DNA from: Thermoleptolyngbya sichuanensis A183
Lineage (GTDB): Bacteria; Cyanobacteriota; Cyanobacteriia; Elainellales; Elainellaceae
Length of the DNA: 64,000 nt
Assembly (NCBI RefSeq): GCF_013177315.1
Contig: NZ_CP053661.1
Coordinates: 2,914,001-2,978,000, forward strand
Reading direction: 5' to 3'
The position numbers and the translations under genes are program-made. A model generated the notes under the pieces. That model saw only the letters and a list, made by a program, of their open reading frames with translations. It made no database searches and was not told the DNA's origin. Shown here piece after piece: positions 9,501 through 38,816 of the stretch. The first letter of the stretch is position 1. Each line of letters starts with the position of its first letter.

Positions 9501-9657
9501 GGGTGCAACCGAGCTACTGAAACAGTCTGCCGCATACTATCAGATGGTAATGCTGAGCAATCCAGCCAGCTTCGATCAAACGGCGCTAGCAAAGAACTGG
9601 CTATGGACTCCGGCGACGCTAAAAGACTGGGCGGCGCTGGGCAGTCGGCGACCTTAG
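6562..9657 (+). CDS. CHAT-domain (caspase-like) protein with TM segment and TPR-like C-terminus
   Basis: CHAT domains are caspase-fold proteases or regulators, often placed in stress, signalling or cell-death pathways. The 1031-residue product starts with GTG at 6562. Around residues 254-310 are HYAGHSN and FNSCRG, the expected His-Cys dyad. A long low-complexity acidic/proline-rich linker follows (about 410-745), then one transmembrane segment (about 752-772, LPLAGAGAMAIALSS) and a C-terminal helical region with TPR-like character. This suggests a membrane-anchored peptidase with an interaction domain. Two copies of an interspersed palindromic repeat sit in frame inside the linker (7791-7825 and 8283-8319). 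No obvious partner gene is adjacent. Confidence 0.85.
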   Translation: MTQEFHLSVTPVGNDEYLVRTERVAPGVPLAEEQLRWAVEEWLALARQLMDDPLLGLLRGHGFYRVGGFELPRRSEYENELPVSLTELGETLYHALFQGTLRNSWMIARGIAQHQGEMLRLRLGLKGSRLPRLPWEVMNGGDRDSLGNLRYPIATGTDVVFSRFQTGIQVMGGRSLRPLSPTQPVRILMVVATPTDQERLELMREAMHLQEELRRPAGPGLEGLGTHPQLELTVLEQPGREELTHALEQGHFHILHYAGHSNLGASGGNLYLVNSRTGLTETLSGDDLAGLLVNNDIRLVVFNSCRGAHTAVPAAGSSAEAQPAQDTRNLAEALVSRGIPAVLAMAEKIPDDVALTLTRLFYRNLRRGFPIDLSLSRARQGLISSYTSNQLYWALPVLYLHPAFDGYLVSGDSRSDPCGNRHHINPADRLQQFPPSYDLPLLAGEEPSLVLSPSRLLEPDLELDLETDEDFELISRAVLLDHDWASPGLEFDNPFHFDAPVATENPFDFDFASSGSLVEVQPTSSERVDEAAESRLAQWPIHHPGAGLFTLGRYDQEPSAPAEGLGTADQPAAAGQFAKQSLGESPVELPGGYLGRLLAQHANPSDHSTAPSSLSLSSTPAPQQTETANAANAADLLQQLTPRPVDLMNVATDATQDARPVDAPVSPAATYRWLASHAPATSPDSSEAAAPPQDSQLDSHQQTATPQDSHRAITPVDTIPTADRIPALRDSRAAHPARKPGRLQKQHILLPLAGAGAMAIALSSFHYTMGLLRREPSPADLLPPMDSAYTPGVPPMPVGTTETSQLAGAAILNLKRENLPEAEKAIAQLLDQNALLDAKVALDAVPSEWRNASYPELMFLMGRLGWQWQQQEGNIYSVDDVQRFWKLAAEGRPDAAAYWNALGFAHYAKGESVDAARVWCRAAALMLAQPIPDSVDAADDRAALNCPPPIQSVTNPEALTAYAGVALALQQAALDPRFSQGATELLKQSAAYYQMVMLSNPASFDQTALAKNWLWTPATLKDWAALGSRRP
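7791..7825 (+). repeat. Interspersed palindromic repeat, copy B (in frame in CHAT gene)
   Basis: This copy is a near-exact match to the four-copy consensus and encodes GDSRSDPCGNR in the linker just after the CHAT domain, with no break in the reading frame. Confidence 0.8.
8283..8319 (+). repeat. Interspersed palindromic repeat, copy C (in frame in CHAT gene)
   Basis: A more diverged copy (GGGGCAATTCGCGAAGC then GGGGAATCGCCC). It encodes QFAKQSLGESP in the low-complexity linker and also leaves the frame open. Confidence 0.65.
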
Positions 9658-10033
9658 CTGCGGTGAGTCTGCAATCTGTAGACCCTGCAACCTGTGAGTT
9701 TGCCACCTACGAGTCTGCAACCTATGAATCTGCATCTGTGAGTTTGCCACCTACAAGTCTGCAACCTGTGAATCTGCATCTGTGAGTTTGCCACCCACAA
9801 GTCTGCAACCTGTGAATCTGCATCTGTGAGTTTGCCATCTACGAGTTTGCCATCTGTGCGTCTGCAATCTGTAGACTCTGCGACTTAGGTAGACTCTGCA
9901 ACTTAGGAAGACTCTGCGGCTTAGATATCGAGTGCGCTACCCCATCCTGCGAAAAACATTTTCCGAATCTCGCTCCCGCGACTAATATGGATAGTTATTT
10001 CGCCCTGTTGCATAATCGTCATCCTTTGGGTTC
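9658..10033. repeat. Tandem repeat, 44-bp unit built from 11-mers
   Basis: Between the CHAT gene and minC lies a degenerate tandem array. Units starting at 9694, 9738, 9782 and 9826 (the last partial) are 44 bp apart and share GTGAGTTTGCC and TGCAACCTGTG blocks. Each 44-bp unit divides into four related 11-mers. A second simpler run (AGACTCTGCRACTTAGG type) follows at 9870-9925. No gene is supported; the minC promoter presumably lies in 9930-10033. Confidence 0.85.
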
Positions 10034-10831
10034 ATGACTTCTGACTCCTCCCCCGTGTCTACGGTGTCGGCTCTGCCCCAGCCCCCCGCCGATGCCGCCC
10101 ATCCCAATTCGCAGGTCCGCTTCAAGAGTGAAGGCGGCCGCCTGCTGCTGATGCTGCCGCCAGAAGGCGAGAGCGAGTTTGCCGTAAGCTGGGGCGACCT
10201 CTGGCAGCAGCTTAAGCAGCGTCTCAGCGCGGGCGATCGCTTTTGGCAGCCGAATACCTCCGTGCATCTCATCGCGCGCGATCGCCTCCTGGATGTGCGC
10301 CAACTCCAGTCCATCGACGAAGCCCTGGCCCAAGAGCAGCTTTGCCTAAAGCGGGTCTACACCAGCCGTCGGCAAACTGCGGTGGCAGCAGCGACGGTCG
10401 GGTTCTCGGTGGAACAACACACGCCCGTTGCCCATCTCAACGCCCCCGCCGAAGCCACCGGCCAAGCGCTGGCAGAGCCGCTCTACGTCGAAACGACGGT
10501 GCGTTCGGGTATGGAAATCCGGCACCCAGGCACCGTAGTCGTGCTAGGCGATGTCAACCCCGGCGGCTCGATCGTCGCCGATGGCGATATTGTGGTGTGG
10601 GGGACGCTACGCGGCGTGGCCCACGCGGGCGCATCGGGCAATCCCCGCTGTCTGATCATGGCGCTGCGGCTAGAGCCAACCCAACTCCGCATCGGCGAGC
10701 AGCTTGCCCGCGCCCCCGAAAAACCACCCGAACAGTTTTATCCGGAAGTGGCCTACGTGGCCTCGGAAGGGATTCGCATTACTCGCTCGGCAGATTTTTC
10801 CAAGCTGCGGCTGTTAGCGCCCGATGCCTAA
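10034..10831 (+). CDS. minC: Septum site-determining protein MinC
   Basis: MinC inhibits FtsZ ring assembly away from mid-cell and is carried to the membrane by MinD. The 265-residue product has a diverged N-terminal FtsZ-inhibiting domain and a clear C-terminal beta-helix domain from about residue 155, recognised by the run RSGMEIRHPGTVVVLGDVN, GGSIVADGDIVVWGTLRG and AHAGASGN. The N-terminal 30 residues are Ser/Pro-rich, as often seen in cyanobacterial MinC. It is the first gene of a minC-minD-minE set on one strand, 177 bp ahead of minD. Confidence 0.93.
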   Translation: MTSDSSPVSTVSALPQPPADAAHPNSQVRFKSEGGRLLLMLPPEGESEFAVSWGDLWQQLKQRLSAGDRFWQPNTSVHLIARDRLLDVRQLQSIDEALAQEQLCLKRVYTSRRQTAVAAATVGFSVEQHTPVAHLNAPAEATGQALAEPLYVETTVRSGMEIRHPGTVVVLGDVNPGGSIVADGDIVVWGTLRGVAHAGASGNPRCLIMALRLEPTQLRIGEQLARAPEKPPEQFYPEVAYVASEGIRITRSADFSKLRLLAPDA

Positions 10832-11008
10832 CAGAATCCAGGATTCAGGGTTTTGTGAAAAAGATTTCTCCTGTCAGGGCGGCTGCTAGATTACACTGCT
10901 AGATCGCACTGCTAAATTGCATCGACCAGAGTTTCGGTTTCATCTCCGCAAGGTTTCATTCGTTCAGGGTTTACTCAAACAGCTTTAGGAGCATTAGGGG
11001 CGATTTTC

Positions 11009-11815
11009 ATGACTCGGATTATTGTCGTCACATCGGGCAAGGGCGGTGTTGGCAAAACCACGACGACTGCGAACCTGGGCATGGCGCTGGCCAAGCGGGG
11101 GCGGCGGGTCGTGGTGATTGATGCAGACTTTGGACTCCGAAACTTAGACCTGCTGCTGGGGCTAGAAAATCGCATCGTCTACACGGCGATGGAGGTTATC
11201 GCGGGCGAATGTCGGCTAGATCAGGCGCTAATTAAAGACAAGCGACAGCCCAATCTGGCCCTGCTGCCCGCAGCCCAAAACCGCACCAAAGACGCGGTGA
11301 ATCCAGATCAGATGAAGCAGCTCATCGAAACGATGAAGGAGCAGTTTGACTTCATCCTGGTGGATAGCCCCGCAGGCATTGAGATGGGCTTTCAAAATGC
11401 GATCGCCGCTGCCCAGGAAGCGCTGATCGTCACCACGCCTGAAATCTCCGCCGTGCGCGATGCCGACCGAGTCGTGGGGCTGCTAGAGGCCAACGACGTG
11501 CGAAAACAGCACCTCATCGTCAACCGCCTCCGACCCTCAATGGTGCAAGATGACCTGATGATGTCGGTTAGCGATGTCCAGGAAATTCTGGCAATTCCCC
11601 TACTGGGCGTAGTTCCAGACGACGAGCGCGTGATTGTCTCGACGAATAAAGGCGAACCGCTGGTGCTATCGCAAAAGCTCTCGCTGGCGGGGTTAGCGTT
11701 TGACAATATCGCTCGCCGCCTAGAAGGTGAAAAGGTGCCTTTTCTGGACTTCACCGCCAGCCATGATGACCTGCTCTCTCGCATCCGCCGCATGTTCCGT
11801 AGCCCTTCGCGCTAG
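11009..11815 (+). CDS. minD: Septum site-determining ATPase MinD
   Basis: MinD is the membrane-bound, dimerising ATPase that recruits MinC and is released by MinE. The 268-residue product has the deviant Walker A KGGVGKTT at about residues 10-18, the switch DSPAGIE near 119-125 and a C-terminal basic amphipathic tail (DLLSRIRRMFRS) that serves as membrane anchor. Length and motifs are as expected. It sits between minC and minE, 65 bp before minE. Confidence 0.97.
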   Translation: MTRIIVVTSGKGGVGKTTTTANLGMALAKRGRRVVVIDADFGLRNLDLLLGLENRIVYTAMEVIAGECRLDQALIKDKRQPNLALLPAAQNRTKDAVNPDQMKQLIETMKEQFDFILVDSPAGIEMGFQNAIAAAQEALIVTTPEISAVRDADRVVGLLEANDVRKQHLIVNRLRPSMVQDDLMMSVSDVQEILAIPLLGVVPDDERVIVSTNKGEPLVLSQKLSLAGLAFDNIARRLEGEKVPFLDFTASHDDLLSRIRRMFRSPSR

Positions 11816-37221: not shown

Positions 37222-38241
37222 CTAAATGACTCGGCTTAGAGGCAGATAGAGAACGTGATTATTTCTCTTACCTAGAGGTTCCTGCTGTCCCAGTTTGCGC
37301 CTTTGTCCCTCTAGCCAAATGATGACGTTACTGTTCTCCGGATAATATTGCTGAACAAATTTAATAAAGTCATCAGGCGTACAAGGTTTACCCGTTCCAC
37401 TCATGAACTCTCGGTGAAATCTAGTGTGAACCTCTTCGGAGATCGTAATTATATTATCCAAACTATCTGCCAAGTGAGGATACGCACTGGAAGAATAGAG
37501 GTGATGGGCTGCCAAATTAAATCGGTGGTACCGATCCGGTTTTTGACCTGTGACAAGACAAGTCTTTTTATCCCGCCTTTTGGCTTCTTCCTTGCACTTG
37601 GAAATCCGCTTCTCACGAGACTCAATCAACTTAATAATGTCTGAGACTTGAGGACTGATTTCTTCACCGACATCCCGACATTCGTCCCGACGATTTTTAA
37701 GCGTAAGTTCAGTTGAGAATGCTAGAGAAAGTCGATAAATGCCTTCCAGAGAGTAGAAAATTCCGCCCTCGTCAATAAATTCCTGGTAGTGCTGTCCTTT
37801 GATTAGCGGGCGATCGCTCTTTTGGGTACATTCAGCCATCCGGCGAAGCGTCTGGATATTTGTCCCGAAAATTGCTACTGCATCTGCTTGGCTCACCCAA
37901 TACTGATCGCTCCGCCGCATCAGCGAAGCACAGTTATCCAAAATTTTCTTACGGACGAAGCTCTTACGAATCTTTTCTCTGGTGTGCAAAAACCACTCTT
38001 TGAGAGAATCCCAAAAACTCAGTTTCTTCGTAGCCTCAAGGTATCGAGCTAGAGTGTACGCTCCCGACTGAGTATATTCTCTGGCTCCGTTGCTTGAAAC
38101 CACTCGATAATCTTTCCCTTCTTCCAATTCCCACTCATCATCAGGAATGGCATCAAAGAACTTCTCAATTTCGATTAGCTCCTGGGAAGAGATTTTGAGA
38201 AGCTTTAGCAAGTCTTCTGCTCTGATGTAGGTTTTTGCCAT
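37222..38241 (-). CDS. HNH endonuclease-like protein, second gene of J-domain/HNH unit
   Basis: A 339-residue protein. The C-terminal third is HNH-like: CLVTGQ, then LAAHHLYSSSAYPHLADSLDNIITI and VHTRFH, giving the His-Asn-His triad; only one Cys is near, so there is no second zinc CxxC. The N-terminal two thirds seem to contain two related modules, each with a helix-turn-helix-like stretch and a GxxY...YTxSGxYxLARY-type end (GKDYRVVSSNGAREYTQSGAYTLARYLE at about 62-88; a similar FYSLEGIYRLSLAF at about 167-180). It starts 2 bp after the stop of the J-domain gene, so the two are coupled. Base composition is markedly AT-richer than the flanks, indicating transfer. Confidence 0.75.
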   Translation of the reverse strand: MAKTYIRAEDLLKLLKISSQELIEIEKFFDAIPDDEWELEEGKDYRVVSSNGAREYTQSGAYTLARYLEATKKLSFWDSLKEWFLHTREKIRKSFVRKKILDNCASLMRRSDQYWVSQADAVAIFGTNIQTLRRMAECTQKSDRPLIKGQHYQEFIDEGGIFYSLEGIYRLSLAFSTELTLKNRRDECRDVGEEISPQVSDIIKLIESREKRISKCKEEAKRRDKKTCLVTGQKPDRYHRFNLAAHHLYSSSAYPHLADSLDNIITISEEVHTRFHREFMSGTGKPCTPDDFIKFVQQYYPENSNVIIWLEGQRRKLGQQEPLGKRNNHVLYLPLSRVI

Positions 38242-38243
38242 AT

Positions 38244-38816
38244 TTAGAACTTCTCGGTCAAACTCTTGTAGAACACGGTCAATCGGTCAAAAATTTCTGC
38301 ATTTCCTGTTTCGGAATTGTCTGGGTGGTAGATCTTGCTGAGATCCCGATAGGCGGCTTTGACATCCTCAGTAGAGTTGACTTTAGGATCAAGCCCAAAT
38401 GCTTTCCACGGCATATCGTATTTGAAAATGTTGATGCCATTGACGCAGCCATAGCCCGATTCGTTTTCTTCACCGGGCAAAATACCAATTAGCTTCCGAT
38501 AAAGCTGCTCCCAGTCATCCTTCTTGCTAAGGCTGATGTTGCCCATGCTGCTAGTTGCAAGCTGAAATGCACCAGACTTTTTGAGTTCCTTGGTGTCTTT
38601 TACGCCGAAATGATCGTAGATTGCTTGCTTGACTTGTGTAACGGTTAGCTTCTTGACTTTGGGCGGCTTCGGCTTTGCAGCAGACTTTGATTTTGCAGAC
38701 TCTTTTGTAAGCACAAAGAGCGCGAATTCTCGCAGAATTGAATCGCTGTAGCCATGCTCGGAAGATAACCGCTGAATCTCGGACTCGATCCGGGCTGTAA
38801 TTTTGTTACTGCTCAT
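38244..38816 (-). CDS. J-domain protein, first gene of J-domain/HNH unit
   Basis: A 190-residue protein. The last ~60 residues form a J domain: WKAFGLDPKVNSTEDVKAAY, then RDLSKIYHPDNSE with the HPD motif that stimulates Hsp70 (DnaK) ATPase. The N-terminal part is Lys/Ser/Ala-rich in the middle (SAKSKSAAKPKPPKVKKL) and preceded by a helical segment; I do not recognise it. No DnaJ zinc finger or client-binding domain is present. The HNH gene follows after 2 bp. The pair shares low G+C content. Upstream 38817-39112 looks non-coding with an AT-rich promoter-like stretch. Confidence 0.75.
   Translation of the reverse strand: MSSNKITARIESEIQRLSSEHGYSDSILREFALFVLTKESAKSKSAAKPKPPKVKKLTVTQVKQAIYDHFGVKDTKELKKSGAFQLATSSMGNISLSKKDDWEQLYRKLIGILPGEENESGYGCVNGINIFKYDMPWKAFGLDPKVNSTEDVKAAYRDLSKIYHPDNSETGNAEIFDRLTVFYKSLTEKF

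Follow-up and report, generated by a model that had tools for sequence, protein, structure and literature searches.

Cyanobacterial genomes carry a mobile two-gene unit in which an HNH nuclease is encoded directly behind its own J-domain protein. We favour, with a probability of roughly 0.4, the reading that this unit specifies a DNA-targeting nuclease that is held or licensed by a dedicated co-chaperone of DnaK, the most likely benefit being defence against foreign DNA or phage. In mechanistic terms, the HNH protein would probably act as a DNA endonuclease whose two winged-helix modules recognise the target, with module 1 being swapped between alleles in the fashion of a specificity domain. 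The J protein, as the nuclease's own co-chaperone, would bind it and recruit the host's DnaK, thereby keeping the nuclease inactive or licensing it only when needed. Diversion of the chaperone system, e.g. by phage infection, would then release the nuclease. The unit was recognised in a window of 64,000 nucleotides, that is the whole stretch of DNA analysed here, from Thermoleptolyngbya sichuanensis A183 (contig NZ_CP053661.1, positions 2,914,001 to 2,978,000).

Organisation of the J-HNH unit in strain A183

Both genes of the unit lie on the minus strand, a detail that the initial annotation had not given. The first gene (38244–38816) encodes the J protein of 190 residues, and its stop codon is separated by 2 bp from the ATG of the second gene (37222–38241), which encodes the HNH protein of 339 residues; the coupled arrangement proposed in the initial annotation is thus confirmed. 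Each gene is present in one copy in the 5.5-Mb host genome. The G+C content of the unit is 0.43–0.46 as compared to 0.56–0.63 in most flanking segments, and relatives within the host's family, in which synteny extends over the ribA-upp side, lack the unit at this position. Composition and absence beside ribA in relatives both support the earlier proposal that the unit has been imported. An empty site with both flanks preserved was not obtained in this family, in which synteny is confined to the ribA-upp side.

The Pfam DnaJ model matches residues 140–188 of the J protein above its cut-off (E 7e-7), and a fold model (pLDDT 92) delimits a C-terminal J domain at residues 132–188 (38253–38423, minus strand), with the HPD motif at residues 164–166 (codons 38319–38327), as had been noted before. 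The fold model matches J domains including the DnaK-bound J domain of DnaJ (5nro; Z 7.4, rmsd 2.0 over 57 residues). Pfam match, HPD motif and modelled J fold together assign the protein to the J-domain (DnaJ/Hsp40) proteins. Among the 48 members of the J family, 13 residues are invariant and these include HPD, which is found in 48 of 48 sequences. The helical region preceding the J domain carries a strongly conserved segment, GYGCINGINIFKYFxPW. Known J domains contact DnaK through the HPD motif and the helix that precedes it. As these contact positions are kept, the J protein is probably competent for interaction with DnaK, by analogy with the known domains. At one locus (L010, 703–1464), the J protein has 253 residues and a duplicated middle module, and a further locus (L198) resembles it in this respect.

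For the HNH protein, matches to single models are weak (phrog_119, E 5e-5; HNH_2, E 0.06). Its fold model (pLDDT 91.6) shows a pair of similar modules at the N-terminus and the HNH domain at the C-terminus. The latter spans residues 208–320 (37282–37620, minus strand) and contains C228, H246, H247, N263, H272, H276 and C287, of which C228, H246, H247, N263 and H276 do not vary among the 45 homologues. Fold model and invariant residues together establish an HNH nuclease domain, which substantiates the HNH-like triad that had been read from the sequence, and the invariant H and N residues along with the structural match over residues 208–325 place the protein in the HNH nuclease superfamily. Since the catalytic residues are invariant in all 45 sequences, catalysis is probably retained. 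The nearest solved structures of the HNH domain are McrA (6ghc, Z 6.9), VcaM4I (6yex, Z 6.5) and CBASS Cap5 (8fmh), all with Z 6–7, and such modest scores indicate the fold and not the function. When the HNH profile was searched against PDB sequences, nothing significant was returned, and a viral structure library yielded weak matches only, to HNH, NinG, KilA-N and antirepressor proteins. The HNH domain is also shared by a separate cyanobacterial family of ~684 residues, which has no J partner (L248, L254, L256, L259, L268, L269).

Module 1 (residues 3–75; 38017–38235, minus strand) and module 2 (residues 106–180; 37702–37926, minus strand) have their predicted secondary-structure elements in the same order, and their alignment by HHalign (probability 79%, E 1.5e-5) bears out the earlier suggestion of two N-terminal repeats. 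Module 1 is predicted to be a winged helix of the MerR/RacA/Bro-N-like type, its structural matches being RacA (5i44, Z 7.0), the MerR-family protein HiNmlR (5d90, Z 6.7) and the N-terminal domain of granulovirus Orf22 (4ye7, Z 6.2); in one family member a Bro-N match is found at E 0.002. We propose that it acts as a specificity module.

The nuclease is found only with its J protein

To assess the pairing, profiles of both families were run against 380 genomes of the class. The J gene was directly upstream and on the same strand for 68 of 69 full-length HNH homologues, and the lone exception starts 58 bp from a contig end. The full pair occurs in 62 of the 380 genomes, that is in about one of six; six genomes hold two full-length pairs, and in these each HNH gene has a separate J gene. 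Likewise, 30 of the 386 genomes that made up an initial set from the phylum contained the HNH family, nearly always adjoining the J gene. A second collection was searched via the J alignment, the HNH columns being too variable. Here, ~56 of 62 J-family loci have an HNH gene behind the J gene, with a gap that is most often exactly 2 bp. Most of the remaining loci have a truncated J gene, in some cases with HNH fragments behind it, or lie at contig ends. While this second search is blind to HNH genes that lack a J gene, the class-wide search with the HNH profile could reveal such genes, and no intact HNH gene of the family without J was found in the 380 class genomes. All 62 loci of the second collection are cyanobacterial, and the unit is restricted to cyanobacteria as far as tested. 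Furthermore, distances between J proteins and between HNH proteins correlate (r 0.79, as compared to a permutation maximum of 0.23), so the two genes travel together. The pairing of J and HNH far exceeds chance. The initial annotation had suggested examining whether homologues are co-located in unrelated genomes, and had named a lack of co-location as evidence against the unit; the pairing persists in both collections.

Two genomes contain an intact J gene with no HNH gene behind it (G019, locus L048, 1486–2034; G119, locus L049, 1486–2037). Such orphan J genes, and the lack of any intact nuclease found alone, are expected if J restrains the nuclease, and thus mildly favour restraint; the same pattern is also compatible with a J protein that is needed for folding or activity of the nuclease.

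The architecture extends beyond the main family. In genome G078 (locus L031), the gene for a divergent J protein of 222 residues (129–797) lies 10 bp ahead of that for a likewise divergent HNH protein of 348 residues (808–1854), which repeats the J-HNH arrangement far from the main family. This HNH protein, used as query, returned numerous hits; in 30 inspected loci, the short HNH proteins (~320–370 residues) all had an HPD protein upstream, whereas the family of ~684 residues at other cyanobacterial loci had none.

Mobility of the unit and exchange of module 1

Both genes are under purifying selection, with dN/dS below 0.5 (0.06–0.48 for HNH, 0.09–0.27 for J). The genes flanking the unit differ between genera and are common only to close relatives. 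In Microcystis, the homologous stretch comprises the two genes and a short flank. Six Microcystis genomes have the unit between ddl and metH, the latter identified by its sequence, and two have it elsewhere, whereas one genome has a stop-ridden remnant. The ddl site is empty in four genomes, two of which carry the unit elsewhere, and in strains without the unit the left flank of this site is rearranged, so that no empty site with both flanks intact was obtained in Microcystis either. With three different sites in this genus, the unit is mobile, that is it moves or is lost within Microcystis. Linkage of insertion to tRNA genes was considered and rejected, as tRNAs occur in only 5 of 82 loci. 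In one Microcystis strain, the unit is immediately preceded by a dispersed repeat of ~130–150 bp (L157, ~9710–9860), of which Microcystis genomes contain tens of copies each. At two other loci (L170, L173), related hosts share the gene neighbourhood and have the unit at different positions within it; this points to repeated insertion or to local rearrangement.

Two alleles of the nuclease can be distinguished in Microcystis. Of 32 allele-fixed differences, 23 are located in residues 1–80, i.e. in module 1 (p 1.5e-8, a value that treats positions as independent, while one recombination event could have moved all of them together). The metH-ddl site can hold either allele, and each is also found at another site. 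In contrast, the J protein is nearly identical between alleles (dN 0.004 for G233 versus G095). As module 1 varies while J hardly changes, it looks like an exchangeable target-recognition domain that needs no matching change in J.

Genomic context and a phage-borne J protein

The initial annotation had predicted that homologues would be enriched in defence islands. This was not seen when 128 immediate neighbours were set against 137 genes taken at arbitrary positions in these genomes: PADLOC matches were similarly rare in both sets, with tallies that count families rather than genes, so that a small enrichment could escape. According to Pfam, the neighbours are mostly housekeeping genes. Of the two proteins themselves, HNH matched only REase_II in PADLOC-DB 2.0.0, at noise level (E 0.024), and J matched nothing. 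A cognate methyltransferase is not a regular partner, models for methyltransferases and restriction endonucleases matching one or two of the 128 neighbours. The conserved unit consists of J and HNH only, and classification as a Type II restriction-modification system was therefore rejected.

In collections of plasmids and phages, neither protein has a homologue at E 1e-5, and no viral contig carrying the HNH protein was found. However, a T7-like cyanophage contig of 38.5 kb (L061) carries the gene for a full-length homologue of J (199 bits) and has no HNH gene. The J homologue (9602–10414) is adjoined by a gene (10588–11733) for a second protein with an HPD-containing J domain. An antidote would be expected to take just this form, a copy of the control subunit on a phage. 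Alternatively, the gene may belong with those phage J proteins to which a role in folding and assembly is ascribed (PMC7824862). Only one phage with a J gene of the family was found, which counts, like the missing defence-island enrichment and the lack of a PADLOC match above noise, against the preferred reading of a chaperone-controlled defence nuclease. On the other hand, the patchy and mobile spread of the unit, its exchangeable recognition module and the phage-borne J gene stand against the null result for defence islands.

Alternative explanations

The pairing as such does not distinguish a J protein that restrains the nuclease from one that serves it, since an indispensable co-factor would be paired just as strictly. 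DnaK and J could mature an unstable HNH protein, which would then act as a constitutive, possibly modification-dependent restriction nuclease. The modelled proximity of the HNH domain to the modification-dependent enzymes McrA and VcaM4I and the lack, as a rule, of a methyltransferase gene in the unit are in line with such a role. However, an intact J gene survives without nuclease in G019 and G119, and a phage carries J alone, both of which are unexpected for a pure activator; we consider this explanation unlikely, though it ranks first among the alternatives. The orphan pattern is also what an addiction module of the toxin-antitoxin type would leave behind, in which J neutralises a nuclease toxin and loss of the unit kills the cell without any benefit for defence. 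A control gene that comes first with 2-bp coupling, a J gene for every nuclease in multi-copy genomes and the solitary location outside of defence islands would fit here as well. Yet, no copy was found in the plasmid collection, and two winged-helix modules together with exchange of module 1 without change in J point to recognition of a target more than to a generic toxin. We rate addiction as unlikely, slightly below the co-factor role.

The mobility of the unit raises the further question whether it is a free-standing element of the homing type, whose HNH enzyme cuts empty intergenic sites into which the unit then copies itself. Indeed, the unit is compact (1.6–1.8 kb), sits at varied intergenic sites, is present or absent within one genus, and has an HNH fold that is common to homing enzymes. 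However, the combinations of allele and site, with different module-1 alleles at one site and one allele at different sites, argue against homing, flanking genes are not common to different genera, and the obligate J partner is left unexplained. We regard homing as the least probable of the readings considered. Hardly better placed is a housekeeping role for the host, e.g. in DNA repair or in stress-induced DNA processing under chaperone control: purifying selection and a chromosomal location among housekeeping genes would agree with it, but the patchy occurrence of the full pair, mobility within a genus, a composition unlike that of the host and pseudogenised remnants speak against it.

The preferred reading of a nuclease under control of its own co-chaperone can be extended to a doubtful but more specific proposal, namely a hitherto undescribed class of Hsp70-gated immune nucleases. 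J and DnaK would hold an HNH enzyme with exchangeable modules, infection would divert the chaperones and thereby trigger release, and some cyanophages would carry J as an antidote.

Comparison with known systems

Models covering the J-HNH pair are absent from Pfam, PHROGs, NCBIfam and PADLOC, and we found no paper describing it in the open-access literature, while papers outside that scope could do so. Within these sources, the statement of the initial annotation that no system with exactly this pair has been described holds.

The closest parallel in gene order is provided by E. coli CbpA and CbpM. CbpM, a protein of MerR fold, binds the J domain of CbpA over the DnaK site (PMC4063869). In both cases, a J gene is directly followed by a gene whose product has a MerR-like N-terminal fold, and module 1 resembles the CbpM structure 3ucs in fold (Z 5.2). 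However, CbpM has no nuclease domain, and the variation of module 1 in Microcystis while J stays the same argues against module 1 as the J-binding surface. CbpM was also rejected as a sequence relative of module 1, with an HHalign probability of 3.6% and nothing at E 1e-3 for PF13591 (CbpM / MerR_2) in the host genome, a model that does match in E. coli. A functional parallel is the defence protein bNACHT25, which requires DnaJ to sense phage (PMC12169576) and thus likewise relies on a J protein. In that system, a NACHT effector works with DnaJ of the host itself, whereas the present unit co-encodes a dedicated J protein with an HNH nuclease. In light of both precedents, chaperone gating of the nuclease appears plausible.

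As for the HNH domain, its best matches among solved structures are McrA, VcaM4I and CBASS Cap5, but with Z below 8 this may reflect just the common HNH fold. These proteins have other N-terminal parts, CBASS partners are lacking here, and the present nuclease always comes with J. Nuclease and chaperone-controlled toxin-antitoxin modules are coupled two-gene units with the control gene in first position and a patchy distribution. The J-HNH unit shares these traits, including an own partner for each copy. It differs in its effector, which has two putative recognition modules, and in its control partner, which belongs to the Hsp70 co-chaperones and retains an intact HPD motif. Thus, the new feature relative to known two-gene nuclease modules is the Hsp70 co-chaperone as obligate partner.

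A nuclease that is found only with its own Hsp70 co-chaperone would offer a small and clean system in which to study how chaperones control an effector that cuts DNA, and the unit is widespread in cyanobacteria, bloom-forming Microcystis among them. Thanks to the exchangeability of module 1 and the J gene on a phage, the ideas on specificity and counter-defence are directly testable. If confirmed, the unit would link two recent themes, the sensing of phage via host chaperones as exemplified by bNACHT25 and the two-gene nuclease modules.
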